Shown: positions 1 to 59,413 of the stretch, piece by piece
Position numbering within the stretch: the first letter of the stretch is position 1
How the letters are laid out: the number at the start of each line of letters is the position of its first letter
Assembly (NCBI GenBank): GCA_014804005.1
Contig: JAAVAP010000016.1
Span: 1-64,000, forward strand
Source: Treponema sp.
Lineage (GTDB): Bacteria; Spirochaetota; Spirochaetia; Treponematales; Treponemataceae
Length of the DNA: 64,000 bases
Reading direction: 5' to 3'
Position numbers and translations under genes: made by a program
The notes under the pieces: model-generated
Told to the model about the DNA's origin: nothing
Databases searched by the model: none
The model's input: the letters and a program-made list of their open reading frames with translations, nothing else

Positions 1-254
1 ACCTTGTCCATGTGCGCACGTGTGACCACCTTGACGGCTCCCGTTTCTGTCGCTTTAGACGTGAGCTGCGTCTGAATGTATTCCGACATATCCTGCGTCG
101 GCGCGGAAAACGCGAGGATGCAGAGAATCGCACCTTTTTCAAGCGGCGCAACCATATCCGCACCCACCGCGCTCAGAACGGAATCAAGATTTTCGCTAGC
201 AAAACAAGTCCACTGCCCAAGCGCAAGAAGAACAAGCGCAACGATTTTTTTCAT
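1..254 (-). CDS. CsgG/LpoB-like exported protein (3' part missing)
   Basis: A frame starts with ATG at 254 and is still open at the window edge, so only 84 codons are visible. MKKIVALVLLALG is a signal-peptide core. The following text, 'AILCILAFSAPTQDMSEY' and then 'VVTRAHMDK', matches the first strand-helix-strand unit of periplasmic CsgG/LpoB-type proteins, which are common in treponemes. It starts 2 nt after the stop of the DUF6261-like gene, so it is the second gene of that operon and should follow its poly-G control. The family call rests on this short N-terminal pattern only; the exported nature is firmer than the family. Confidence 0.6.
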   Translation of the reverse strand, partial: MKKIVALVLLALGQWTCFASENLDSVLSAVGADMVAPLEKGAILCILAFSAPTQDMSEYIQTQLTSKATETGAVKVVTRAHMDK

Positions 255-256
255 GC

Positions 257-979
257 CTACTCCTTCTTCCCCGCCGCCGTGCGCCGCGTTACGGTGTCGT
301 TGCTGCTCTTGATGTTGCCCGCCACCGCCGCAACGAACGCCGCGTAGCCGTCCATCGCCGCCACGATGTTCAAGTACGGCACGATATTGTCGTTGATGAG
401 CGACACGAGCGGCTTTTTGAGCGACGACGCGCTCTCGCCCTTGCCCGCCTTTGCCCTGACGTAGCCGTCATGCGCGGAAGTGAAGGCGTCCTGCGCCTCG
501 CGCAGGCTCGCCACCAGCTCCGCCACGCCCGAAAGCGCCTTGACCTGCGCGGCGACTTTCTCCGCTCCCAAATCCTCCAAAAGCGACTCCGTGAGCGCAG
601 TCTGATCAGCATAATTCCTGCTCGTCATTCCGCGCCCGTACTTTTCCAGCACCGCGCACACGTCGGCGGCCGCAGCCTTCACCTCCGCGAAAGGGCTTGC
701 CGTGTAGCCGCCCGCGAGCGTGAAAAGGTCGCGCGTCACAGCGTCTCGCTTGCCGTCCGCCTCGTCCAAGGTGGAGACCACCGCGTCCTGCCTGATCGCC
801 GTGGTGTTCCGCGCGCTCAAGTCCGCAAGCTGCGCGAACTGCGTTTTGAGCACCGAGTCCTTCGCCACCGCCGTCTCGCCGTCAGCGCAGGCGAGCTTGT
901 ACTCACGCTCCATCGCGTCCGAAAGCGCGTCAAGCTCCGTCACGCGAACGTTGTTGATAACCTTAGTTACTTTTGCCAT
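257..979 (-). CDS. DUF6261-like protein, locus 1
   Basis: A 240-residue helical protein without signal peptide or membrane segment. It shares with two other proteins in this window a pattern of 'TTAIRQD', 'ESLLEDLG' and 'GVAELV', and resembles the uncharacterised DUF6261 family known mainly from Bacteroidota. Function unknown. ATG is preceded by AAGGAG at good distance. The start codon lies inside the end of an upstream leader ORF, so initiation may be translationally coupled. The gene directly downstream encodes an exported CsgG/LpoB-like protein. The family name is from memory of its sequence pattern and should be tested by profile search; paralogy with the other two copies is visible by eye. 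Confidence 0.72.
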   Translation of the reverse strand: MAKVTKVINNVRVTELDALSDAMEREYKLACADGETAVAKDSVLKTQFAQLADLSARNTTAIRQDAVVSTLDEADGKRDAVTRDLFTLAGGYTASPFAEVKAAAADVCAVLEKYGRGMTSRNYADQTALTESLLEDLGAEKVAAQVKALSGVAELVASLREAQDAFTSAHDGYVRAKAGKGESASSLKKPLVSLINDNIVPYLNIVAAMDGYAAFVAAVAGNIKSSNDTVTRRTAAGKKE

Positions 980-1601
980 AAAAACTCCTTAATGTATTGA
1001 TTTTTGTTTGAACCGAATGAAAAAAGTTCTTTTGAAGCCCGAAACTGCGCCGAGAAAGCAACGAAAGAACTTTTGAAGTCCGAAAACACGCTGGGAAAGC
1101 GACAAAAGCACTTTTGAACGCAGAAACCGCACCGGGGAAGCAATAAAAGTACTTTTGAAAGCCAAAATTGCACAAGGGAAAGCACGAAAGTATTTTTGAA
1201 CGCTGAAATTGCGCAAGGGAAGCAACGAAAGTTCTTTTGAACGCTGAAAACACGCCAGGAAAGACGCAAAAGTGCTTTTGAAAGATAAAAACGTCTTGAA
1301 TAAAGACTGCGAGTTTTCGGAGAAAACTCGGTAAGCAGCGCGAGCGGGGTCTTGGGGTGCAACCCCAAGCCGTGCTGGGAAAGGGTGAGGGTTTGGGAGA
1401 GGGAAAACCCCGCTTCGGAAGTAGAGGGTTTCCCCTCTCCCAAGAACGGTTCCTCCGCTTCCAAGCGGAAAAAGAACGCATTGCGCGTCCTTCTATATGA
1501 GAATTGTGCTTTTTTGGAATTTCCTAGGTCGCCGTACCCCCCCCCGTAATTTTTCGAGCGATCGTTTTATTGTGTTCAAGTTGTGGGGAGATATGTATCA
1601 T
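967..1601 (-). CDS. Phase-variable leader ORF 1, presently OFF
   Basis: ATG at 1601 lies 7 nt after a -10 box. The frame enters a G9 tract at codon 19 (ACG GGG GGG GGT) and stops at TAG 1524-1526. With one extra G the frame is open for 211 codons, crosses the 41-bp repeat array and ends at TAA 967-969, 13 nt inside the DUF6261-like gene whose SD (AAGGAG) it contains. The 8-G frame stops quickly. The encoded protein is low-complexity and probably not under strong selection; the likely role is to carry ribosomes to the next start codon. The overlap and the frame are visible; coupling is inferred. Confidence 0.5.
1023..1309. repeat. 41-bp tandem repeat array, seven copies
   Basis: Units begin with AAAG at 1023, 1064, 1105, 1146, 1187, 1228 and 1269, each 41 bp, with the core 'CTTTTGAA' best conserved; the last copy is degenerate. 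Because 41 is not a multiple of three, copy-number changes would shift the leader frame. Yet all three reverse-strand frames through the array are open and end close to the DUF6261-like start (stops at 989, 967 and 963). Confidence 0.85.
1537..1545 (-). repeat. G9 homopolymer (phase-variation tract), locus 1
   Basis: Nine C on the + strand, nine G in the sense of the leader ORF. Followed by TACGGC in the reading direction. Ten or seven G would join the upstream start to the long leader frame. The same tract length occurs at three other places in this window. Confidence 0.85.
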
Positions 1602-1608
1602 GGGGAAT

Positions 1609-1638
1609 ATGCTAGCATGAAATGCCGCGAAATGTCAA
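1609..1638 (-). promoter_or_regulatory. Promoter of surface locus 1
   Basis: TTGACA (1638-1633), 18-bp spacer, TAGCAT (1614-1609). The -10 ends 7 nt before the leader ATG. The block TTGACATT ... TTTCATGCTA is shared with the promoter of locus 3, which supports both. Confidence 0.7.
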
Positions 1639-8729: not shown

Positions 8730-11585
8730 CTATCTGCAGATTGGAATTGGAGTCAAATATGGCACCATTTTTTTTATATTATCCCATTCCGCCTTCGTGC
8801 CGATGTATCTCACGGTCGTGAGATTCTTGCACAACTTGAACGCCGCCTGCCCAATGCTCGTAACACTGCTGGGTATCCACAGGTTCGTTAGCCCTGTGCA
8901 CGAATAGAACGCATATTGGCCGATGCTCGTAACACCCTCGGGTATCGTCATGCTCGTTAAACCACTGCACCCATAGAACGCACTGTCCCCGATGCTCGTC
9001 ACACTGTCGGGTATCGTCACGCTAGTTAGGCCACTGCACAAAGAGAATGCACTTTCCCCGATGCTCGTAACACTGTTGGGTATCGTCACACTCGTGAGAC
9101 TTGTGCAATTAGAGAACACATCGCCCCCGATGCTTGTCACACTGCCAGGTATTGTCACGCTCCAAAGCTTGGAGCAATACGCGAACGTACCGTCCCCGAT
9201 ACTCGTAACACTGTTGGGTATCGTCACGCTAGTTAGACCACTACACAAAGAGAATGCCCTTTCCCCGATGCTCGTAACACTGTTGGGTATCGTCATGCTC
9301 GTTAGACCCTTGCACCCAGAGAACGCATACGCCCCGATGCTTGTCACGCTGTCGGGTATCGTTACTTTCGTTAGACCAGTACACGAACCGAACGCATTGG
9401 ACCCGATGCTCGTAACACTGTTGGGTATCGTCATGCTCGTTAGACCACTACACATAGAGAATGCATTATCCCCGATGCTCGTAACACTGTTGGGTATCGT
9501 CACGCCAGTTAGACCCCTGCACGAAGAGAACGCATTATAGCCGATTTTCGTCACGCCATCAGGTATGACAAGTTTTGCGGGGAGTTTATTTTTATCAACA
9601 CCTGTCACTGTCCTACCACTAATCGTTAGGTATTCGGGAATTTTTTCAACTTCAACGCCTATGTGTCCATCACTACAACGGATGCAAGTAATATCTACTT
9701 TGTCGCTTCCTTCGATTGCATTCCACTGCGCTTTCGTACCGCTGAATTCTATTTTCGTGAGACTCGTACAATCCTTGAACGCATCGCTTCCAATACTCTT
9801 CACACTTGCGGGTATCTCCACGCTATTGAGAGACGTGCACTTCTCGAACGCCCTGCTCCCGATACTAGTCACGCTGTTGGGTATAGTCATGCTCTTGATA
9901 CTCCAGCACTCAAAAAATGCCATTTCCCCGATGCTCGTCACTCTGTTGGGTATAGTCACGCCTGTGAGTTTATAACAAGCTCTGAATGCACTGTTTCCGA
10001 TACTCGTCACACTGTCAGGTATAGTCACGCCAGTGAGGCTCGTACAACCAGAGAACGCACCGTCCCCGATGCCCGTCACCCCATCAGGGATTACCACTGA
10101 CTTTTCATCCCCCATTGAATAATACTTTTTGAGTACGCCGTTTTCGTCTATAGTGCCGTATGTCATGGACGGATTTTTTCCGCATTCTGTACATTTTCCA
10201 TCTTTATAGGAATGGTTGTGCACAGTAACCTCGCACGTATCCGTCTTGCCGCCCGCACGCGCGGTGGCGGTGATTGTCGCCGTGCCTGCTTTGAGCGCCT
10301 TCACAGTGCCGTAGTCGTCCACCGTCGCAATTGTTTCATCGGAAGATGACCATATTACAGTCTTATCGTCCGCATCATCAGGCGTTACCTTCGCTCTCAC
10401 CTCTCCTTTCTCACCGCATGCGAGCTTTAGAGTTGTCTTGGTGAGCGTGATGCTCTCGATAGGTCTAGGATTCACGGTGACCTCGCATGTCGCCGTAAAA
10501 CCACCTTCCAGTGTGATGGCGATGATTGTCGCAGTGCCCGCCTTGCGCGCCGTAACTATGCCGTCCCCCCATGAATCCACATCCGCGACATCACGATCGG
10601 AGGTTCTCCAGTTCACCGCAGTGTAGTCCGCATTACTCGGCAGCACCGTCGCCGTTAATTTGAATTCCTCGTCGCGATTGAGCGTGAGCGTTTCATAGTC
10701 GAGCGTGATGCCCTCCACTGGAACACTTATCCGCTCTACGATTACTTCACACTCCGCCTTTTTATTCCCTGCATATGCGGTAATTGTCGCAGTGCCTTCT
10801 TCATGTGCTGTCACAGTGCCGTCAGAGTCCACAGTCGCTATCCAATAATTGGAAGTACCCCATCCCACAGTCTTGTCAATCGCGTCATCAGGGTGTACTG
10901 TCGCCACAAGCGTTCCAGTACTACCAGGCGCGAGCATGAGCGTTTCCGTATTTAGCGTGACGCTTTCCACTGCACCTGGGAGATCCGGCTGCTCCACGTA
11001 TTCCTCATTCACGTAGACCGTGCAAGATGCTGTAACGTCGCCTACTTGAGCGGTTATGATTGCCGTGCCTTCCGTAACCGCTGTAATCATGCCATAATCA
11101 TCCACCGTCGCGACTCCAGTATCGGAAGATGTCCATGTTACGGCTTTGCTGTCAGCGTTCTCAGGGTGCACCGTTACAGTCAGTATTCGCGACTCGTTAC
11201 GTCTGAGCCAAAGGGTCGTTTCGGAGAGCGTGATGTTTTGCACCATCGGCGGTTTCACGGTAACTGTGCAAGTCGCCATTTTGTCGCCCGCCTGTGCGGT
11301 GATGGTTGCCGTTCCCTCATAGTATTCAGATGCAGTAATCGTGCCATCCCAAATCACTCCCACAACATCTACGTCGGATGATGACCATGTTACATACCTG
11401 TTGTCAGCGTTCAATGGCAGTACAGTCGCAGTCAGCGTTCTCGTCTCGCCGGGCTCTAGCGTGAGCGATGTTTCATTGAGCGTGACGCTTTGCACCGCGA
11501 TGGGTTCTGGCTCTGAGACGACCTTGCACCCTGCGAGCGCGATTGCGAATGCCGCAAGCGCGGCTACAATCCATATCTTTTTCAT
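8730..11585 (-). CDS. Surface lipoprotein, five Ig-like (BIG2) domains plus BspA LRRs
   Basis: 951 aa. Signal peptide with lipobox LAGC (Cys about residue 20). Five Big_2 Ig-like domains follow (about residues 32-455), each ending in a 'GTATITA...TCTVTV'-type strand pair. A short 'HNHSYKDGKCTECGK' segment leads to two blocks of BspA/TpLRR (LRR_5) repeats of about 23 residues, consensus 'VTIPNSVTSIGxxAFxxC', split by 'GTKAQWNAIEGSDKVDI'. Such proteins are exported adhesins or substrate binders in treponemes; the ligand is unknown. The SD AAGGAGG lies in a 30-bp stretch also found before the DUF6261-like gene upstream. Co-transcription with that gene places it under the poly-G switch of locus 2. 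Confidence 0.9.
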   Translation of the reverse strand: MKKIWIVAALAAFAIALAGCKVVSEPEPIAVQSVTLNETSLTLEPGETRTLTATVLPLNADNRYVTWSSSDVDVVGVIWDGTITASEYYEGTATITAQAGDKMATCTVTVKPPMVQNITLSETTLWLRRNESRILTVTVHPENADSKAVTWTSSDTGVATVDDYGMITAVTEGTAIITAQVGDVTASCTVYVNEEYVEQPDLPGAVESVTLNTETLMLAPGSTGTLVATVHPDDAIDKTVGWGTSNYWIATVDSDGTVTAHEEGTATITAYAGNKKAECEVIVERISVPVEGITLDYETLTLNRDEEFKLTATVLPSNADYTAVNWRTSDRDVADVDSWGDGIVTARKAGTATIIAITLEGGFTATCEVTVNPRPIESITLTKTTLKLACGEKGEVRAKVTPDDADDKTVIWSSSDETIATVDDYGTVKALKAGTATITATARAGGKTDTCEVTVHNHSYKDGKCTECGKNPSMTYGTIDENGVLKKYYSMGDEKSVVIPDGVTGIGDGAFSGCTSLTGVTIPDSVTSIGNSAFRACYKLTGVTIPNRVTSIGEMAFFECWSIKSMTIPNSVTSIGSRAFEKCTSLNSVEIPASVKSIGSDAFKDCTSLTKIEFSGTKAQWNAIEGSDKVDITCIRCSDGHIGVEVEKIPEYLTISGRTVTGVDKNKLPAKLVIPDGVTKIGYNAFSSCRGLTGVTIPNSVTSIGDNAFSMCSGLTSMTIPNSVTSIGSNAFGSCTGLTKVTIPDSVTSIGAYAFSGCKGLTSMTIPNSVTSIGERAFSLCSGLTSVTIPNSVTSIGDGTFAYCSKLWSVTIPGSVTSIGGDVFSNCTSLTSVTIPNSVTSIGESAFSLCSGLTSVTIPDSVTSIGDSAFYGCSGLTSMTIPEGVTSIGQYAFYSCTGLTNLWIPSSVTSIGQAAFKLCKNLTTVRYIGTKAEWDNIKKMVPYLTPIPICR

Positions 11586-11664: not shown

Positions 11665-12393
11665 TTACTCTGCCACGTCCACAGATGTCGCGGACTTTTT
11701 CTTTCCGCCCAAGACTTCTTGCCTAAAATGCGCTATTTCCGTATTCGCATAGTCGATGAACGCGGCGTAATCCGCCTCGCCCTCAAGCAATGCATGCGCG
11801 TTCACATGAAGCACGAGCACTTTGTACGCCTCGTCGCTCGCCGTGCGAGCCGCTTTCAATGCGCCGGCGGTTTTTGCCGAACGCTCGTCCGTGCGCTGCC
11901 CCGTAAGAGAGCGCACTTCCTCGTTCGCGACTTTGAGCTTTTCCACGAACGTCGAAAGCGAGAGCACCTTCACCTGCTCGGCGAATTTGCCCTCCAAGTC
12001 TTGGATAAAGTTCACGAGCAAGCCGGTTTCTTTGTCCAACTGCGCCTGCACGTCGATTTTGTAGTCCTTGATGTGCTGATTGAGCACCTTCGCCGCCTCC
12101 GCCATTTCCTCCATGGGGAAATTCGTGTAGCCTGCGACGGCTTTCTTGTAGCCGGCATACAATTGGTCGCGAAGCCTGTCTGCCGCCACGATTTTGTCGG
12201 TGGTGAGGCTTTTCGCGCTGATTTTGAGGTTCTCGTCCTCCGCCGTCACCGCAGAACGAAGCGCGGCGACCTGCGCCTTGCACTTCTCCGCCACAGCCGT
12301 GTCCTTTTCCGCGCGCTCCGCCATGTTCGAGACGAACAGGAAGTGCGCCGCGTTGTTCATGCTTGTGAGCGGAAGTGTCTGGATTTCTTTCAT
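11665..12393 (-). CDS. DUF6261-like protein, locus 2
   Basis: 242 aa, helical, no signal peptide. Features 'AAHFLFVSNMAE' near the start and 'AADRLRDQLYAGYKKAV' in the middle, patterns I associate with DUF6261 proteins of Bacteroidota. It is the most typical member of the three copies in the window and more distant from copies 1 and 3 than those are from each other. Function unknown. ATG overlaps the stop of the leader ORF as ATGA, and AAGGAG lies in the leader's last codons. The next gene is the Ig/LRR lipoprotein, 79 bp downstream, so this protein is a candidate accessory or regulator for that surface protein. Confidence 0.72.
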   Translation of the reverse strand: MKEIQTLPLTSMNNAAHFLFVSNMAERAEKDTAVAEKCKAQVAALRSAVTAEDENLKISAKSLTTDKIVAADRLRDQLYAGYKKAVAGYTNFPMEEMAEAAKVLNQHIKDYKIDVQAQLDKETGLLVNFIQDLEGKFAEQVKVLSLSTFVEKLKVANEEVRSLTGQRTDERSAKTAGALKAARTASDEAYKVLVLHVNAHALLEGEADYAAFIDYANTEIAHFRQEVLGGKKKSATSVDVAE

Positions 12394-13060
12394 AAAAACT
12401 CCTTGTTGCCCTTTACAGGCGATTTATTTTCTTGCCCTTCAGATTCGTGCTTGTGAGAATCCGCGAAGCTGTCAGAGGTCTCGGAAAGTATGTTGTTAGT
12501 TGCTGTGGACACGTCGGAGACCTCGGATTGTGCTTTGTCGAATGCTGTGGACACGTCAGAGGTCTCGGATTGCATTTTGTCGGTCGCTGTGGACGTGTCA
12601 GAGGTCTCGGATTGTACTTTGTTGAACGCTGTGATGCTGTCGGAGGTCTCGGATGGTATTCTGTTAAACGCTGTGAAGCCGTCGGAGGCCTCGGATTGCA
12701 TTTTGTTAATCACTGATAAGGAATTTTGCGCACCAAATTTGTATTTGTCGAGTAGCGAGAGATTATCAATTGTGATTTTGCGGGGTCTTGGGGCGAAAAT
12801 AACACGAGTTTTTGAGGTTTTCTTAAATGCCCTCGCGAGTTTTCGAAGAAAACTCGGTAGCAAACCGCAGGTTTGCGTAAAAAAGGACGCGCAATGCGAA
12901 ATTATATCCGCATTGCGCGTCCTTTTATAAGAGAATCGTCCTTTTCCGGAAAAACTTAGGTCGTTATACCCCCCCCCGTACTCGCGGAGAATATTCTACC
13001 CATGCAAAGCGGCGAGAATTGCGCGATTGAGAAGCAAGTTTTGGTGAAACGCCTAGGCAT
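12390..13060 (-). CDS. Phase-variable leader ORF 2, presently OFF
   Basis: ATG 13060 has AGGAAG 6 nt upstream and a promoter above it. The frame meets the G9 tract at codon 28 and stops as 'GGGITT' plus TAA. One more G (10 or 7) opens 223 codons through a 36-residue stretch, then 14-residue repeats of the type 'FNKVQSETSDxxTA' from the 42-bp array, ending TGA that overlaps the DUF6261-like ATG (ATGA). Here the repeat unit is a multiple of three, so the peptide repeat is regular and Ser/Thr/Asp-rich; a real secreted or structural product cannot be excluded. Coupled re-initiation is the favoured role. Confidence 0.5.
12480..12720. repeat. 42-bp tandem repeat array, six copies
   Basis: CTCGG anchors fall at 12480, 12522, 12564, 12606, 12648 and 12690, exactly 42 bp apart. 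The unit holds 'GAGGTCTCGGATTG'. The array lies in the leader of DUF6261-like gene 2; arrays with unrelated sequence but the same period stand in the leaders of the other two copies. Confidence 0.9.
12879..12926 (-). terminator. Attenuator-like terminator in leader 2
   Basis: Perfect 18-bp inverted repeat (12881-12898 with 12909-12926; core GGACGCGCAATGCG), 10-nt loop, and six T on the reverse strand directly after the stem. It lies about 45 nt downstream of the G9 tract and far upstream of the gene, so it would stop transcription unless ribosomes disrupt it. In the ON frame it is translated. Confidence 0.7.
12969..12977 (-). repeat. G9 homopolymer (phase-variation tract), locus 2
   Basis: Nine G in the reading direction, followed by TATAAC exactly as at locus 4. 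Inside codon 28 onward of leader ORF 2. Ten or seven G would open the long frame. Confidence 0.85.
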
Positions 13061-13088: not shown

Positions 13089-13117
13089 ATTCTATTGCAA
13101 TTCCGGATATTTGTCAA
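13089..13117 (-). promoter_or_regulatory. Promoter of surface locus 2
   Basis: TTGACA (13117-13112), 17-bp spacer, TAGAAT (13094-13089). About 29 nt before the SD-preceded leader ATG at 13060. Confidence 0.7.
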
Positions 13118-39597: not shown

Positions 39598-41451
39598 TTA
39601 TTTTACGACGACTACGCCGTCCGAGCACAGGACAACGAAACTGCCTATTTTTTGGTTTAATATATTCCCTTTTGAGATTGCTTCCCACTGCGCCTTTGTG
39701 CCGTCATACTGAATCTTGAGGTTGGGACACCCTACGAACGCGGTAGGACCGATGTGCGTCACGCTGCGTGGAAGAACCACGTTCACAAGCGATTTGCATC
39801 TACCGAACACGGATCCATAAATCTCCTTCACACCGCGCGAAATAGTCACATTCTTGAGCGACGTGCAATCAAGGAACGCTAAATCGCTGATTGTCGCCAC
39901 GCTTCCCGGAATGGTCACGTTTACAAGTGATGTGCAACCCTCGAACATGTTATCGCCAATAACCCGTGCACCATCGGCAATCGTAACGTTCGTAAGCGAT
40001 GTACAATCTTTGAACGCCCACGAACCAATTTCTTCCACACTTTTTGGAATGGTCACGCTCTTTAATGCCGTGCAGCCATAGAACGCATTGGCGTCGATAT
40101 CCGTCACGCTATCGGGAATTGTAACGCTCGCGAGCGCCGTGCACCCAAGAAACGCGCGCTCGCCGATTTTCGTTACGCCGCTTGGAATGCTCACGCTCTT
40201 GAGCGACGCGCAACCATTGAATGCACTGGCTTCGATTGCTGTCACGCCCTCGGGAATAGATATGCTCACAATCGCCGCGCAATTATAGAATGCCGCTACA
40301 CCAATTTTCGTCACGGTTTTGGGAATGCTCACGCTCTTGAGCGAAGTGCAGCCACTGAACACATCGCTGCTTATTTCCGTCACGCCCTCTTCAATGACTA
40401 CACGCTCAAGATATGTGCAACCAGAGAATGCACCACTAGAGTATGAAACATTTCCGCCGATTTTCTTCACGCTGCCAGGAATCGTCACGCTCTCTATGTC
40501 AAGACAGTCCTTGAACGCCCTCTCGCAGATTTCCGTCACATCATCGGGAATTACGACGTTTGCTGGAACTTTGCCGGTATACCCTGTCACTTTCGTGCCT
40601 TCCATTACAAGGTACGATGTGTCGGGAACTTCTATGTAGCCATCATTGCATCGGATGTTTATCGCTATCTTGCCACCTCTTTTGATAGCATGCCACTGCG
40701 CCATCGTGCCTTTGAACTGTATTTCCTTGAGCGACATGCATTCCTTGAACGCATCGCTGCCAATTGCCGTTACGCTGTCTGAAATAGTAACGCTCACAAG
40801 CGACGTGCAACCGCCGAACGCACCGTAACCAATTTCCGTCACGCTGTTTGGAATAACAACACTCGCAAGCGACGCGCACCCATTGAACGCATTCCAGCCG
40901 ATTGCCGTCACGCTTGCAGGAATCGTCACACTCGCAAGAGACGTGCACCCATTGAATGCGCTGTAGCCGATTGCCGTCACGCCGTCGGGAATGACTAGGT
41001 TTGCGGGAACGGAGCCAATATGTCCCGTCACTTCCGTGCCGTCCATTTTGAGGTATTCGGGAACTTCCTTTACACCGATGTAGCCGTCGCTACATTGGAC
41101 ACACGAAACCTTTATCCCGTCGCTTCCTTGGATTGCCTTCCACTGCGCCGTAGTGCCTTTGAATTGTATTTCCTTTAGAGACGTACAGTAATTGAACGCA
41201 CTGCCGCTAATGCTCGTCACGCTCGCGGGAATGGTCACGCTCGCAAGTGACGAGCAGCCACTGAACGCATTCCAGCCGATTGCCGTCACACCATCGGGGA
41301 TTACGAGTTCTGCGGGCAATTTTTTCTGATTTTTCACGCCCGTCACCATCGTTCCGTCCATAATAAGATATGGAGGAAATTTCGCCTTTTGCGCAAACGC
41401 CGCCATCGCAAATACCATTGTCGCAAGCGCGGCAAGCCATGTCTTTTTCAT
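39598..41451 (-). CDS. Exported BspA-type leucine-rich-repeat protein
   Basis: 617 aa. Signal peptide MKKTWLAALATMVFAMAAFA without lipobox. Nearly the whole mature part is LRR_5/TpLRR repeats of about 23 residues ('SVTIPxSVTxIGxxAFxGC') in three blocks, each closed by a 'GTKAQWxAIxGSD' cap and reopened by 'YLxMDGTxVTGxxxxVPANLVIPDGV'. Such proteins act as adhesins or binders. ATG 41451 is chosen for the signal peptide and AAGGAG 7 nt upstream. Second gene of surface locus 3 behind DUF6261-like gene 3. The 192-bp gap to that gene has a CGACAGGCTC/GAGCCTGTCG hairpin. Confidence 0.9.
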   Translation of the reverse strand: MKKTWLAALATMVFAMAAFAQKAKFPPYLIMDGTMVTGVKNQKKLPAELVIPDGVTAIGWNAFSGCSSLASVTIPASVTSISGSAFNYCTSLKEIQFKGTTAQWKAIQGSDGIKVSCVQCSDGYIGVKEVPEYLKMDGTEVTGHIGSVPANLVIPDGVTAIGYSAFNGCTSLASVTIPASVTAIGWNAFNGCASLASVVIPNSVTEIGYGAFGGCTSLVSVTISDSVTAIGSDAFKECMSLKEIQFKGTMAQWHAIKRGGKIAINIRCNDGYIEVPDTSYLVMEGTKVTGYTGKVPANVVIPDDVTEICERAFKDCLDIESVTIPGSVKKIGGNVSYSSGAFSGCTYLERVVIEEGVTEISSDVFSGCTSLKSVSIPKTVTKIGVAAFYNCAAIVSISIPEGVTAIEASAFNGCASLKSVSIPSGVTKIGERAFLGCTALASVTIPDSVTDIDANAFYGCTALKSVTIPKSVEEIGSWAFKDCTSLTNVTIADGARVIGDNMFEGCTSLVNVTIPGSVATISDLAFLDCTSLKNVTISRGVKEIYGSVFGRCKSLVNVVLPRSVTHIGPTAFVGCPNLKIQYDGTKAQWEAISKGNILNQKIGSFVVLCSDGVVVVK

Positions 41452-41644: not shown

Positions 41645-42352
41645 CTATTCATTATTAACTATAAAATCCTCCTTCTTTCCGCTCACGGCGCGGCGTTCTG
41701 CGGCATTGTTCGCGCGGACGATTTCCGCCTCCACCTTCGCGGCGAAATCCTTGTACGCATCCGAGACACCCACCGCGCTCAGATACGGCACGATTTTCAA
41801 ATTAACCAAAGAAGTCAGTTCCTTTTTTACCTGCGACGCGCTCTCGCTCCGTGCACCCTTTGCCGCCACGAAATCATCGTTCGCCGCGTTGAATTCGTCC
41901 TGCGCCTTGCGGAGCGCGGCCGCGAGTTCCGCCACGCCCTCAAGCAGCTTCGTCTCCGCCTCAAGCGCGCCCAGGTCCTCCAGCAGGCTTTCGATGAGCG
42001 AAGATTCCGAAGCGTAGGTTTCGTTCACGATTTTCTTTCCGTACTTGGAGAACACCGCGTCCAGCTTCTGCGCCGCCGCCTTCTTTTCCGCCACGGGAAT
42101 CGCCGTGTAGCCTTGGATCAGCGTGCCAAGGTCGCGCACGGCGGCATCCCGCGCAGCATCCTTTTCGTCAAGCCGAGAGCTGACCGTGTCCTGCCGAATC
42201 GCGGTCGTAAGCCGCGCGCTCAAAGCCTCAAGCTCGGCAAACGCGCCCGAAAGGAAATCGTCCTTCAGCCCCGCCGCCTTGAAAAGCCGCACGAGAGCGT
42301 CGCTCGCCGAATCCGTCTCCGTAACGCGAAGCCTAGAAGAAAGTTTTGTCAT
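41645..42352 (-). CDS. DUF6261-like protein, locus 3
   Basis: 235 aa, helical, close to copy 1: both have 'TTAIRQD', 'ARDAAVRDLGTLIQGYTA'-type and 'ESLLEDLGA' blocks and a 'VSGKKE' or 'AAGKKE' end. ATG 42352 is chosen: GGAGG lies 7 nt upstream, and a longer frame is not preceded by a signal. The ATG overlaps the stop of leader ORF 3 (ATGA). First full gene of the locus, followed by the LRR protein. Function unknown. Confidence 0.72.
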   Translation of the reverse strand: MTKLSSRLRVTETDSASDALVRLFKAAGLKDDFLSGAFAELEALSARLTTAIRQDTVSSRLDEKDAARDAAVRDLGTLIQGYTAIPVAEKKAAAQKLDAVFSKYGKKIVNETYASESSLIESLLEDLGALEAETKLLEGVAELAAALRKAQDEFNAANDDFVAAKGARSESASQVKKELTSLVNLKIVPYLSAVGVSDAYKDFAAKVEAEIVRANNAAERRAVSGKKEDFIVNNE

Positions 42353-42902
42353 ACACACCTCCGTGTTTTGTCGCGCCAAAACGCGCGTTTTTGTTTGTGA
42401 AATCCAATGCAAGCCTCATTTTGCGTGAAAATCGGCTTTTGCATTCTGACAACAGCACCAAATTCCGAGTGGAAGCACTTTTGCACGTTGACAATGCGCC
42501 CAAATTCCGTGTAGAAGCACTTTTGCACTTTGACAATGCCCCGAAATTCCGTGTAGAAGTCCTTTTGCACGCTGACAACGCCCCCAAATTCCGTGTGGAC
42601 GGCTTTTGCAGTCCGACAACGACCCCAAATTCCGTGTGGAAAGCCTTTTGCATTCCGACAATGCCCCGAAATTCCGTGAATTCCTAGGTTTGCTTTAAAA
42701 AAATTGAGGAAATTCGTTGCGGCTTCTTTGCAAAAGCCTAGATGGGCATAAAAAAGGCGCGATGCGAGCCGAATGCGGCAAGCCTTTTCGCGCCTATGAA
42801 GTGAAATTCGACGTGAGAAAAAATTACGGGGTTGCTTTACCCCCCCCCATACCTTTTTTGAGCAAACAGTGTAGTGTTTTCAGTTCGCGCCATGTGTGTC
42901 AT
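42349..42902 (-). CDS. Phase-variable leader ORF 3, presently OFF
   Basis: ATG 42902 lies 7 nt after the -10 box. Eighteen codons lead to GGG GGG GGG and an immediate TAA. One more G turns TAA into GTA AAG and opens 184 codons, across the hairpin and the 42-bp array, to a TGA that overlaps the DUF6261-like ATG. I translated this frame fully and found no stop. The other frame stops within a few codons. As in the other leaders, the peptide has no recognised family. This is the clearest case because a stop codon directly abuts the tract. Confidence 0.52.
42418..42680. repeat. 42-bp tandem repeat array, six copies
   Basis: AAATTCC anchors at 42460, 42502, 42544, 42586, 42627 and 42669 (periods 42, 42, 42, 41, 42), with a degenerate copy before them. 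Unit core 'AAATTCCGTGTAGAAG' and 'CTTTTGCAC'. A single 41-bp step shows that indels occur in the array. Confidence 0.9.
42750..42794 (-). terminator. Attenuator-like terminator in leader 3
   Basis: GGCGCGA pairs with TCGCGCC (inner GCCG/CGGC stem) and six T follow on the reverse strand. It lies about 45 nt downstream of the G9 tract, the same place as the terminator in leader 2. Confidence 0.65.
42840..42848 (-). repeat. G9 homopolymer (phase-variation tract), locus 3
   Basis: Nine G in the sense of leader ORF 3, followed by TAAAGC. In frame the tract is three glycine codons and then TAA; ten G gives read-through. Confidence 0.85.
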
Positions 42903-42909
42903 CGTGGAA

Positions 42910-42939
42910 ATAGTAGCATGAAAAACCCTTCAATGTCAA
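42910..42939 (-). promoter_or_regulatory. Promoter of surface locus 3
   Basis: TTGACA (42939-42934), 18-bp spacer, TACTAT (42915-42910). Shares TTGACATT and TTTCATGCTA with the locus 1 promoter. Back to back with the glmS promoter, -35 boxes 16 bp apart. Confidence 0.7.
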
Positions 42940-57156: not shown

Positions 57157-57167
57157 TGTAACTCCTA

Positions 57168-57344
57168 TAAAAAGTCAAGAAGAAAGTTTCAACTTTCGAT
57201 TGACTTTTTACGCACATTCGCAACGCAGTGAGAATGTGCATTAAATATGCAAGTTTCCAACGGAAACTTGACATGATAAAAGTGCTGCTCCATTTGTGCG
57301 GCACTTTTATCATAACTCCTATTAAAAAGCAAAGCCCGCTTTGC
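57168..57344. repeat. Row of five hairpins before the symporter gene
   Basis: TAAAAAGTCAA/TTGACTTTTTA (inner GAAAGTTTCAACTTTC); GCACATTC/GAATGTGC; CAAGTTTCC/GGAAACTTG; GATAAAAGTGC/GCACTTTTATC; GCAAAG/CTTTGC. The inner palindrome of the first equals that of the first hairpin before the P-loop gene (one base differs). An SD-preceded ORF of 55 codons, reverse strand 57310-57143, runs through them. Confidence 0.8.
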
Positions 57345-57593: not shown

Positions 57594-59413
57594 ATGCGGT
57601 TTGAAATGAAAAAATTTTTAAGTTTGCCGATGGCAATTCTTTTGCTTGTCGGCTGTTCCAGCGGAGATATGGGGGGGGGTATAACACTTCCGTAACATTC
57701 CATTCAAATGCGCCGAATGGCACTGTCGCAAACGGAACAATGAAGTCGCAAGCCTTTACTGCAGGGCAACCATTCACGCTTGCGAAAAACGAGTTTTCGA
57801 TTGAAGGATATACGTTCCGTGGCTGGACGGATTCCCCATCGAAAGAAGAGCCGCTATACGCGGATGAGCAGGAAATCACACTTTCCGACAACATCGAGCT
57901 TTATGCAGTATGGCAAAAAACCGAAATCCCGCCAGATGAAGAAAAGAAATTCACCGTAACATTCTATGCAAATGCGCCAGATGGCACTGTCGCAAACGGA
58001 ACAGTGCCGCCGCAAACCTTTACTGAAGGGCTGGCGTTTGCGCTTGCGAAAAACGAGTTTTCGATTGAAGGATACACGTTCCGTGGCTGGACGGAGAACG
58101 CTTCGGCGACAGAAGTGACATACGCGGATGGACAGGAAATCACGCTTTCCGAAAACATCGCGCTTTATGCCGTGTGGGAAAAAGACGGAACTCCGCCGAA
58201 AGATGAAAACACACACACCGTTACGTTCATAGCAAATGCGCCACAAGGCTTCACGGCTCAAGGCTCGATGCCACCGCAGTCATCCGAAGTCTCATGGCTT
58301 ACGCTCAAGGAAAACGCATTTTCAGTGCCGCAGCACATCTTCAAAGGCTGGGCAACAGACGCTTCTTCAAAAGAAGTGGCATACGAAGATGAGGCGGAAC
58401 TTTTCAATTTTACCGACGATATTGTATTGTACGCAGTGTGGGAATATTGGCTTTCTGTCGATGAAGATGGCAACATCATCGTACAACAGGTAGACGATAT
58501 ACCGTCCGATGTCGTTATCCCCGAGGGTATTACGACGATAGGAGAGACAATTTATTTGGGAGGAACTTTTACCGACATCTTTGAGAATTTCACGACATTG
58601 ACAATTCCTTCTACATTGAAGAATATAAATACGATGTATGCCTTTACCAACATGAAGGCAGGGTTCTGGCCTCTTCCCATCCTTGGAATTGACAAACGCA
58701 CGAAAGTGCTCCCATTCAAATTCATTGTAGACGAAAACAATCCGTACTTCAAGACAAACGATAGCGGCAACATGCTCCTTTCAAAGGACGGAAATGAATT
58801 GTACTTCGTGACGAATTCATCGTCCGACTACACAATTCCTTCGACAGTACGGAACATAAAGGCAGGCGCATTTATCGGCGCGGACATACAAAGCATAAAC
58901 TTGGACGGCGTTACGCTGGAAGCCAACTGCACCTTCCAAAACTGCACGAAACTCACGAGCGTCGTGCTGAAAAATATCACAAAAACCGATGGTAGTGATA
59001 TTGATCCGTCTCAAATGTTTTCTAATTGCATTGCCTTGGAAAGCGCGGACTTGAGCGGTTGTGACATTGAAAGAATGTTAAATACGTTCTCAAACTGCAC
59101 TAACCTCACAGAAGTAAAACTTCCTGAAACGTTGGAAAAGATGGACGCCACATTTGACGGATGCACGAGTCTCACTAAATTCGCAATTCCTGCCAGCGTA
59201 ACATATTTTACTTCGAATTTAGGAACAGGGAACGGAAGGAGCGTAAGCATTACATATCCCAAAACAGTTGAAGACTACAAGAAGATAAGAAATGATGATT
59301 CTGGCAATTCTTTTTTGTCAAACGCATTCGGCGAAAACGTGAATGTAACTGTCACATGCTCAGACGGAAAAGTCATTTACACAGCTGGCAGTGACGAAAT
59401 CAAAGTGGAATAA
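57594..59413 (+). CDS. Phase-variable InlB/LRR surface lipoprotein, presently OFF
   Basis: ATG 57594 follows AGGAGG and encodes a signal peptide with lipobox LLVGC (Cys 21). At codon 26 it enters G9 and stops 7 codons later as 'GGGITLP' plus TAA 57693-57695. One more G gives 606 codons in one frame, joining the signal peptide to three InlB_B (Listeria-Bacteroides) repeats ('EGYTFRGWT', 'ENIALYAVW'), of which the first starts right after the tract ('TSVTFHSNAPNGTVANGT'), and then BspA-like LRRs to the end. So the gene is intact apart from one base and is best read as switched off, not dead. An internal ATG at 57740 exists but would lack export. Confidence 0.85.
57671..57679 (+). repeat. G9 homopolymer (phase-variation tract), locus 4
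   Basis: Lies between lipobox and first InlB repeat, followed by TATAAC as at locus 2. Ten or seven G restore the frame; eight gives GTA TAA. Confidence 0.9.

Follow-up and report, generated by a model that had tools for sequence, protein, structure and literature searches.

Putative transcription attenuators set by G/C tract slippage upstream of DUF6261 genes in a Treponema genome

Phase variation is usually described as breaking a gene itself or as tuning its promoter. The tpr tracts of Treponema pallidum lie between promoter and start and act on transcription start, and in siaD of Neisseria meningitidis a tract frameshift is said, in work of 1999 by Lavitola that PMC3025981 cites, to cause premature transcription termination inside the frame. 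In the pyrBI operon of Escherichia coli, ribosomes translate a leader frame across an intrinsic terminator almost as far as the first gene, and the terminator is blocked when the ribosome follows RNA polymerase closely; the signal is pausing that depends on uridine triphosphate (UTP) and is reversible. Here we describe three leaders in a 64,000-nucleotide (nt) stretch of a Treponema sp. genome, probably from the gut (contig JAAVAP010000016.1, positions 1 to 64,000; hereafter the window), each of which starts a reading frame that is broken at a run of nine G and lies upstream of a gene of the DUF6261 family (PF19775). From their sequence features, these leaders are likely to be phase-variable transcription attenuators that are set heritably by slippage and are mostly OFF.

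The leaders resemble pyrBI in that the leader frame runs through a terminator and ends near the first gene, and differ from it in the input, which here would be the heritable length of a G/C tract rather than a reversible, UTP-dependent signal. The gene for the siaD enzyme contains both the tract and the terminator, whereas here they lie in a dedicated leader. The tract of the Treponema leaders is inside a frame, unlike that of tpr, and the tpr-type arrangement, in which the tract separates two promoter elements or the promoter from the start, was not seen at any of the gates described below. The T. pallidum tpr tracts (PMC7864442) are alike in genus, poly-G, surface proteins and phase variation. 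In the pilus operons of Bifidobacterium breve (PMC9187656), translation that begins after a strong promoter continues or breaks off according to a G tract behind the start, and downstream transcription is lost in the OFF state, which its authors read as dispersed polarity with no specific terminator. A tract after promoter and start switches a surface-structure operon there and would do so here. The upstream frame in B. breve is the N-terminal part of the pilin, whereas the Treponema leader appears to lie outside the product (it is fused to it at only one of 13 loci); Treponema also differs in carrying a positioned hairpin in the G-type loci and in having 13 such loci. Searches of open-access full text, outside which most subscription papers lie, gave no description of an attenuator set by slippage, and the B. 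breve operons were the nearest case; PMC11955535, on Ribo-seq in C. jejuni, did not bear on the question.

Leader 1 occupies 967..1601, leader 2 12390..13060 and leader 3 42349..42902, all on the reverse strand; with their DUF6261 loci they are called W1, W2 and W3. Their frames start at ATG 1601, 13060 (with AGGAAG upstream) and 42902 and enter tracts of exactly nine G at 1537..1545, 12969..12977 and 42840..42848, respectively, giving 25, 34 and 21 codons. With ten G, the frames are open to 967, 12390 and 42349 and comprise 211, 223 and 184 codons; leader 1 then stops 13 nt inside the DUF6261 gene that starts at ATG 979, and leaders 2 and 3 end in an ATGA overlap. Promoter-like sites precede all three: TTGACA-18-TAGCAT at 1609..1638 and TTGACA-18-TACTAT at 42910..42939, both with TG before the -10 box and 7 nt between this box and the ATG, and TTGACA-17-TAGAAT at 13089..13117. 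Each leader contains a tandem array, with a period of about 41 nt in leader 1 (1023..1282) and of 42 nt in leaders 2 (12468..12709) and 3 (42436..42678). The DUF6261 genes lie on the same strand at 257..979, 11665..12393 and 41645..42352 and match the profile with E-values of 1.2e-20, 1.6e-45 and 1.3e-18 (74.5, 155.2 and 67.8 bits), above the curated cut-off of 27 bits. These results reproduce what a first-pass annotation of the window had claimed, namely three reverse-strand leaders that are OFF at nine G and opened by one more, followed by DUF6261-like genes. Its DUF6261 assignment was correct for all three genes; the terminator hairpins and a C-tract version of the leader, both described below, had escaped it.

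The design recurs in the genome (2.53 Mb in 31 contigs) beyond the three loci of the annotation. A profile search for DUF6261 gave 23 matches to 22 genes, one gene being matched twice (C13:13622 and C13:13828), and 13 of the 22 have a nine-base tract 377-776 nt upstream, which is G9 at nine loci and C9 on the sense strand at the other four. Leader starts were set from the promoter and the Shine-Dalgarno position where these were visible. In all 13 leaders, the frame is open from the leader ATG up to the tract, which begins 40-104 nt after the start and within the frame. At length 9, the frames of 12 leaders stop 3-17 nt after the tract. One more base takes all 12 as far as the start region of DUF6261 or past it (-59 to +50), and one of them, L062, is the sole leader of the 13 that is fused in frame to DUF6261. 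The remaining leader, L061, reaches the open frame at 9 because its tract reads C9T. As in pyrBI, promoter and leader frame lie upstream of the operon: promoter-like sites with at least 10 of 12 matches precede the leader start at 10 of the 13 loci. The start is 6-7 nt after the -10 box at W1, W3, L054, L055, L061, L069 and L070, and a leaderless mRNA is therefore predicted there. Each of the 13 gated DUF6261 genes has its own Shine-Dalgarno-like sequence at the start, these starts having been picked partly by that criterion.

Among the other nine DUF6261 loci, L059 and L060 are identical and have a G6 remnant, L065 is cut by a contig end and L072 contains many N. L067 lacks a tract and has TATAAT, 7 nt, an ATG and a leader that is open to an ATGA overlap with DUF6261. 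No recognisable gate was found upstream of DUF6261 at L056, L063, L068 and L071. L059 and L060 share the same upstream sequence on different contigs and are possibly an assembly duplicate, and scattered single N in and around DUF6261 at L058, L065, L070 and L072 look as if reads of paralogs had been merged. Tandem arrays of about 42 nt were also seen by eye upstream of DUF6261 where no tract is visible (L067, L071, L147, L149 and L153); these arrays may act in their own right, for example as a target of the DUF6261 protein.

From position +100 to 60 nt ahead of the gene, stops are absent from the length-10 frame at 12 of the 13 loci and from 6 of the 26 other frames (Fisher p = 5e-5). When one locus was taken from each of the 10 array families of our own grouping, the combined p for openness was 3e-8 after a factor of 3 for the choice of frame, with shuffle p-values of zero set to 0.0005; this value is optimistic, since shuffles break tandem repeats. 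The case for openness is one for the ensemble, above all for L054, L057, L061, L064, L070 and W2, where one or more of the other frames contain many stops. Of 14 G-type loci, 10 have OFF-frame stops that start at precisely +2 and +10, well before the hairpin.

In most G-type loci, the tract is followed by a hairpin and then a T run that begins at +83/84. The window holds intrinsic-terminator-like examples in leader 2 (12881..12926, reverse strand; -34.9 kcal/mol, z-score -9.3, then a T run) and in leader 3 (42755..42795, reverse strand; -21.8 kcal/mol, z-score -3.7), the latter at +84 as in leader 2 and with a different sequence. The ON frame runs through the hairpin, and the OFF frames end before it. 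A hairpin lies within +79..+88 in 11 of the 14 G-type loci (free energy, dG, of -18 or lower and at least five T in eight), whereas 68 of 141,063 positions passed the same test across the 22 DUF6261 loci, a background that counts several positions per terminator and includes the tested loci. The hairpins of leader 3 and L066 lie at the same spot and have unrelated stem sequences. Across an alignment of ten related stems, both sides had changed in 3 of 18 pairs, a number reached by 5 of 500 shuffles, and this covariation gives the predicted hairpin modest support. The leader frame passes through a predicted intrinsic terminator, as in pyrBI, in most G-type loci and in the HU-type loci described below, and not in the C-type loci.

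The leader peptide was compared by codon position. Among paralogous leaders, differences at positions 1, 2 and 3 numbered 88:102:99 over about 550 sites each, counted at in-phase positions with a local identity of at least 70% in seven hand-picked pairs with shared members. In DUF6261 itself, the ratio was 69:36:260 in the five of those pairs with both genes available. The gate gave 11:13:12 over seven sequences, and differences between array units were 34:34:28 in W2 and 27:12:10 in W3. Arrays of different loci encode unrelated peptides, as had been noticed earlier for the window. From the flat codon-position differences, openness rather than the peptide therefore seems to be kept; the leader is probably an open frame with no selected product and a peptide that itself has no function. 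Apart from this comparison, one frame of leader 1 (window 1330-1450, reverse strand) codes GEGKPSTSEAGFSLSQTLTLSQHGLGLHPKTP, which recurs in many predicted proteins (P0001-P0028), several of them named Treponema; this stretch is an interspersed repeat that may have replaced half of the usual hairpin in leader 1.

Across the genome, 12 tracts have exactly eight bases, 57 have nine and seven have ten, tracts with N at the flank being left out of these counts. No tract exceeds ten, and all 13 gates stand at nine. Tract lengths differ among relatives (7, 9 and 10) and between near-identical copies in genome G180 (8 and 9). The two marks of a contingency locus, a tract in frame with one open frame and a length that varies between relatives or copies, are thus both found, with L144 and L151, which have two open frames, as exceptions to the one-open-frame rule. 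By our reading, G9 is in frame in eight further genes, four of which have clear Pfam domains; the intact G9 genes L095, L096, L130 and L137 carry solute-binding, periplasmic-binding, glycosyltransferase-2 and hexapeptide-transferase domains. G10 is in frame (ON) in L116 and L118; their likely paralogs, L081, L087 and L135, have G9 and are OFF. Because G9 occurs in intact genes and G10 in frame elsewhere, a general loss of one G is unlikely; systematic shortening of tracts by the assembly, which the annotation had asked to be excluded, was judged unlikely on these same intact Pfam genes and G10 paralogs. All five paralogs are lipoprotein-like, and the tract that puts the two groups into opposite states lies near a signal-peptide-like start.

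Gates with a leader start were also counted by state. At the assembled length, 29 of 31 distinct gates are OFF and 2 are ON; these related gates comprise the 13 and L123 of this genome, seven upstream of DUF6261 in relatives and ten in other members of the genus. The excess of OFF suggests a repertoire that is OFF by default. The count leaves out L134, which lies at a contig end, L161, the frame of which closes before the gene, L187, whose start would fall past the contig end, and L177 and L179, which by their flanks were equated with L155 and L143, as well as L180, L184, L186, L188 and L190.

Related loci show the same arrangement. In Treponema metagenome-assembled genomes, a suitably placed tract is present at seven of 13 DUF6261 loci (three G9, two C9, one C7 and one C10), and at the assembled length six of these gates are OFF and one is ON. 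At the DUF6261 loci of G018 and G021 (L139-L142), where gene starts are approximate, no tract of at least seven was found. The earlier proposals that tract lengths would vary among relatives and that the +1 frame would stay open in homologous leaders both stood: C7, C9 and C10 were seen, G8 and G9 occur in near-identical copies, and the frame stays open. When sets of 118 and 200 genomes from the genus were searched with a covariance model of gate and hairpin, matches were found in at least 5 of 118 and at least 5 of 200 genomes, counts that include the source genome and are lower bounds given the strict filters; the two sets of genomes differ. In G075, G084 and G101, a -10 box, 6-7 nt by eye, ATG, G9 and a hairpin (-28.8 to -39.4, at +74 to +86) come before the next gene, and the leader frame extends past the start of that gene in all five loci, once being fused to it. 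Because the hairpin is built into the search model, it provides no independent test there; promoter, start and overlap are independent. The next gene has HU-DNA_bdg and DUF4469 domains in the three cases scanned and is by Pfam unrelated to DUF6261. Of the two genes scanned that follow it, that of L165 matches LRR_5, and that of L163 has a Flg_new match below the cut-off. The HU-type leaders are much shorter than the DUF6261 leaders, and they open at 8/11 in L158, L160, L163 and L165 and at 10 in L159, all five being assembled at 9. G180 holds further copies of the gate, of which L178 (G9) and L185 (G8) share nearly identical flanks, and in G123 (L161) the leader precedes a lipoprotein-like gene to which its frame is not open. 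Several of the G180 matches sit at contig ends.

The frames behind the window tracts were also searched against 5.8 billion proteins. Among 27 matches to leader 2, five (P0029, P0033, P0041, P0048 and P0052) read across the tract and appear to do so over ten G, a length deduced at the protein level on the assumption that the tract is uninterrupted and the flanks are as in the window. The N-terminus of P0033 is nearly that of leader 2. P0040 and P0044 read across a nine-G tract preceded by Ile (I-GGG), as would result from a mutation of the first G in a run of ten, and interrupted tracts in the ON frame thus occur there and, as C9T, in L061 and L150. None of the 28 matches to leader 1 spans the tract from an upstream start.

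Taken as attenuators, the leaders would work as follows. A promoter would start a short reading frame that runs into the tract, the length of which would be altered by replication slippage. In the OFF frame, the ribosome would leave about 30 nt before the hairpin, the terminator would form and RNA polymerase would stop. In the ON frame, a ribosome behind RNA polymerase would prevent the hairpin, as in the pyrBI leader of E. coli, and would also shield the remaining leader from Rho, which is encoded in the genome. At C-type loci with no positioned hairpin, Rho-dependent polarity may do the same job. The opened leader would switch on DUF6261 and, at many loci, a likely surface-protein gene behind it; with OFF as the default, each cell would show few surface proteins and rare slippage would reveal another. 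On balance we also favour, with less assurance, the view that such G/C-tract attenuators form a distinct modular class of phase variation, OFF by default and copied to a surface-protein repertoire and to two unrelated first genes (DUF6261 and HU-DNA_bdg/DUF4469); its parts would be a promoter, a leaderless or short-leader start, the G/C tract, stops in the other frames, a terminator and a product-free open frame. A dedicated leader with no visible selection on its peptide would then turn tract length into termination or readthrough of a whole operon and would be a portable on/off module. This could explain some of the long 'hypothetical' repeat proteins predicted from Treponema as product-free open leaders, and offers a testable explanation for how many BspA-like proteins could be varied one by one in uncultured spirochaetes.

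Several results weigh against this interpretation. The two ON gates among 31 are fewer than random lengths would give. No clear promoter was found at L062, L064 and L066 when promoter-like sites were sought at the 13 gated loci. L144, L134 and W1 fail the hairpin test, W1 having only a short, weaker, terminator-like hairpin followed by a T run (1470..1494, reverse strand; -11.2 kcal/mol, z-score -3.6), and C-type leaders showed no strong hairpin at +79..+88 in eight of eight cases (four in this genome and four in relatives). Of 500 shuffles, 17 did as well as the stems in covariation score, and sliding the stem structure by -2 columns also gave three pairs changed on both sides. A generic terminator scan missed the hairpins of leaders 1 and 2 and the +84 hairpin of leader 3, with counts below those of shuffles in two regions and 3 versus 1.3 in the third; we think that it missed the +84 hairpins because some of the T run is paired with A at the foot of the stem, and direct folding does reveal them. 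The generic promoter scan did recover the promoters of all three leaders. Array units of L057 differ at 123:94:160, leaning to the third codon position, and gaps between paralogous leaders do not keep the frame (remainders of 0, 1 and 2 modulo three in 8, 10 and 4 cases, that is, 8 of 22 multiples of three), as counted in the four pairs that passed the identity filter and where repeat alignments are unreliable. The W1 array beyond +100 is free of stops in all frames, and arrays of the relatives L147, L149, L144 and L151 are likewise open in more than one frame. With its array open in every frame, W1 alone therefore proves little, and the first-pass claim that the shared frame is beyond chance held for the ensemble and not for this leader by itself.

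Other explanations were weighed against attenuation. The annotation had proposed that slippage switches ribosome delivery to the DUF6261-like gene, and translational coupling with no transcription step, in which the tract decides whether ribosomes arrive and re-initiate at the DUF6261 start, would fit the ends of the ON frames in this genome, which lie at -59 to +107 around that start or are fused, and the ATGA overlaps at five of the 13 loci (W2, W3, L055, L057 and L064) and at the tract-free L067. We regard this as unlikely, because the 13 gated DUF6261 starts have Shine-Dalgarno-like sites of their own and a terminator at a fixed place would be unneeded. These sites, together with a stop signal at a fixed distance after the tract, point to transcription control, by attenuation or polarity, to which coupling would be at most an addition; what stood of the original proposal is that the tract gates a leader frame ending at the gene. 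The leader could instead encode a phase-variable repeat protein whose product matters, as its long open frames, the repeats of 42 nt (14 codons) and the third-position lean within the L057 array might imply. With no third-position excess between leaders, unrelated peptides from the arrays of different loci and much shorter HU-type leaders, this is hardly credible.

The uniformity of the tracts invites two further readings. Programmed slippage of RNA polymerase or the ribosome at a fixed G9, with an invariant tract and a constant ON fraction, would account for the predominance of tracts of exactly nine and for the 13 gates all standing at that length. It would not account for lengths of 7, 9 and 10 in relatives and of 8 and 9 in near-identical gates, for proteins that read across a predicted ten G, for the interrupted ON tracts of L061, L150, P0040 and P0044, or for ON lengths that differ among species (10 as against 8/11) although all stand at 9, and it is very unlikely. 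An assembly artefact, with true tracts of ten and every locus ON, would explain why 12 of 13 leaders need exactly one extra base and why the genome lacks longer tracts; PMC9187656 warns, for B. breve, that G-tract lengths in databases can differ from the real population. The in-frame G9 of L095, L096, L130 and L137, the in-frame G10 assembled in L116 and L118, the occurrence of G9 in other assemblies and the ON length of 8/11 at G9 in G101 and G084 make such an artefact highly improbable, and mixed populations of tract lengths may exist beside the assembled ones.

The genes that follow DUF6261 are in line with the surface-protein operon proposed by the annotation: within about 1 kb downstream, an LRR_5 or Big_2 protein is encoded at 9 of the 13 gated loci (W2, W3, L054, L055, L061, L062, L064, L066 and L070). 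At W2, this is probably a lipoprotein of the surface that combines LRR_5 (BspA type) and Big_2 domains (8730..11585, reverse strand), and at W3 an LRR_5 (BspA type) protein with a signal-peptide-like N-terminus (39598..41451, reverse strand). The gene after DUF6261 has no Pfam match at L057 and L069 and matches DUF4062 at L058; at W1 it is cut by the window edge, its start (3..254, reverse strand) lying 2 nt from DUF6261 and encoding a signal-peptide-like N-terminus. The AlphaFold model of DUF6261 is all-helical with a predicted local distance difference test (pLDDT) score of 90.7, and a structure search of the PDB gave a best match at E = 0.087, so that no function was assigned to DUF6261.

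Tracts of a third type were seen by eye at L080, L115, L075 and L131, where a G or C tract lies between TTGACA-like and TATAAT-like boxes, as in a promoter spacer; C10 gives a 17-nt spacer in L115, and C9 a 16-nt spacer in L080. The fourth G9 tract of the window (57671..57679, forward strand) has no leader and lies within a lipoprotein-like gene (ATG 57594), just after a lipobox-like LLVGC. It is OFF at 9 and ON at 10, so that all four tracts of the window are one G short of ON, as first annotated. Near it, at 57163..57281 on the reverse strand, lies a TD-1 RNA (RF03155), the sole Rfam match in the window.

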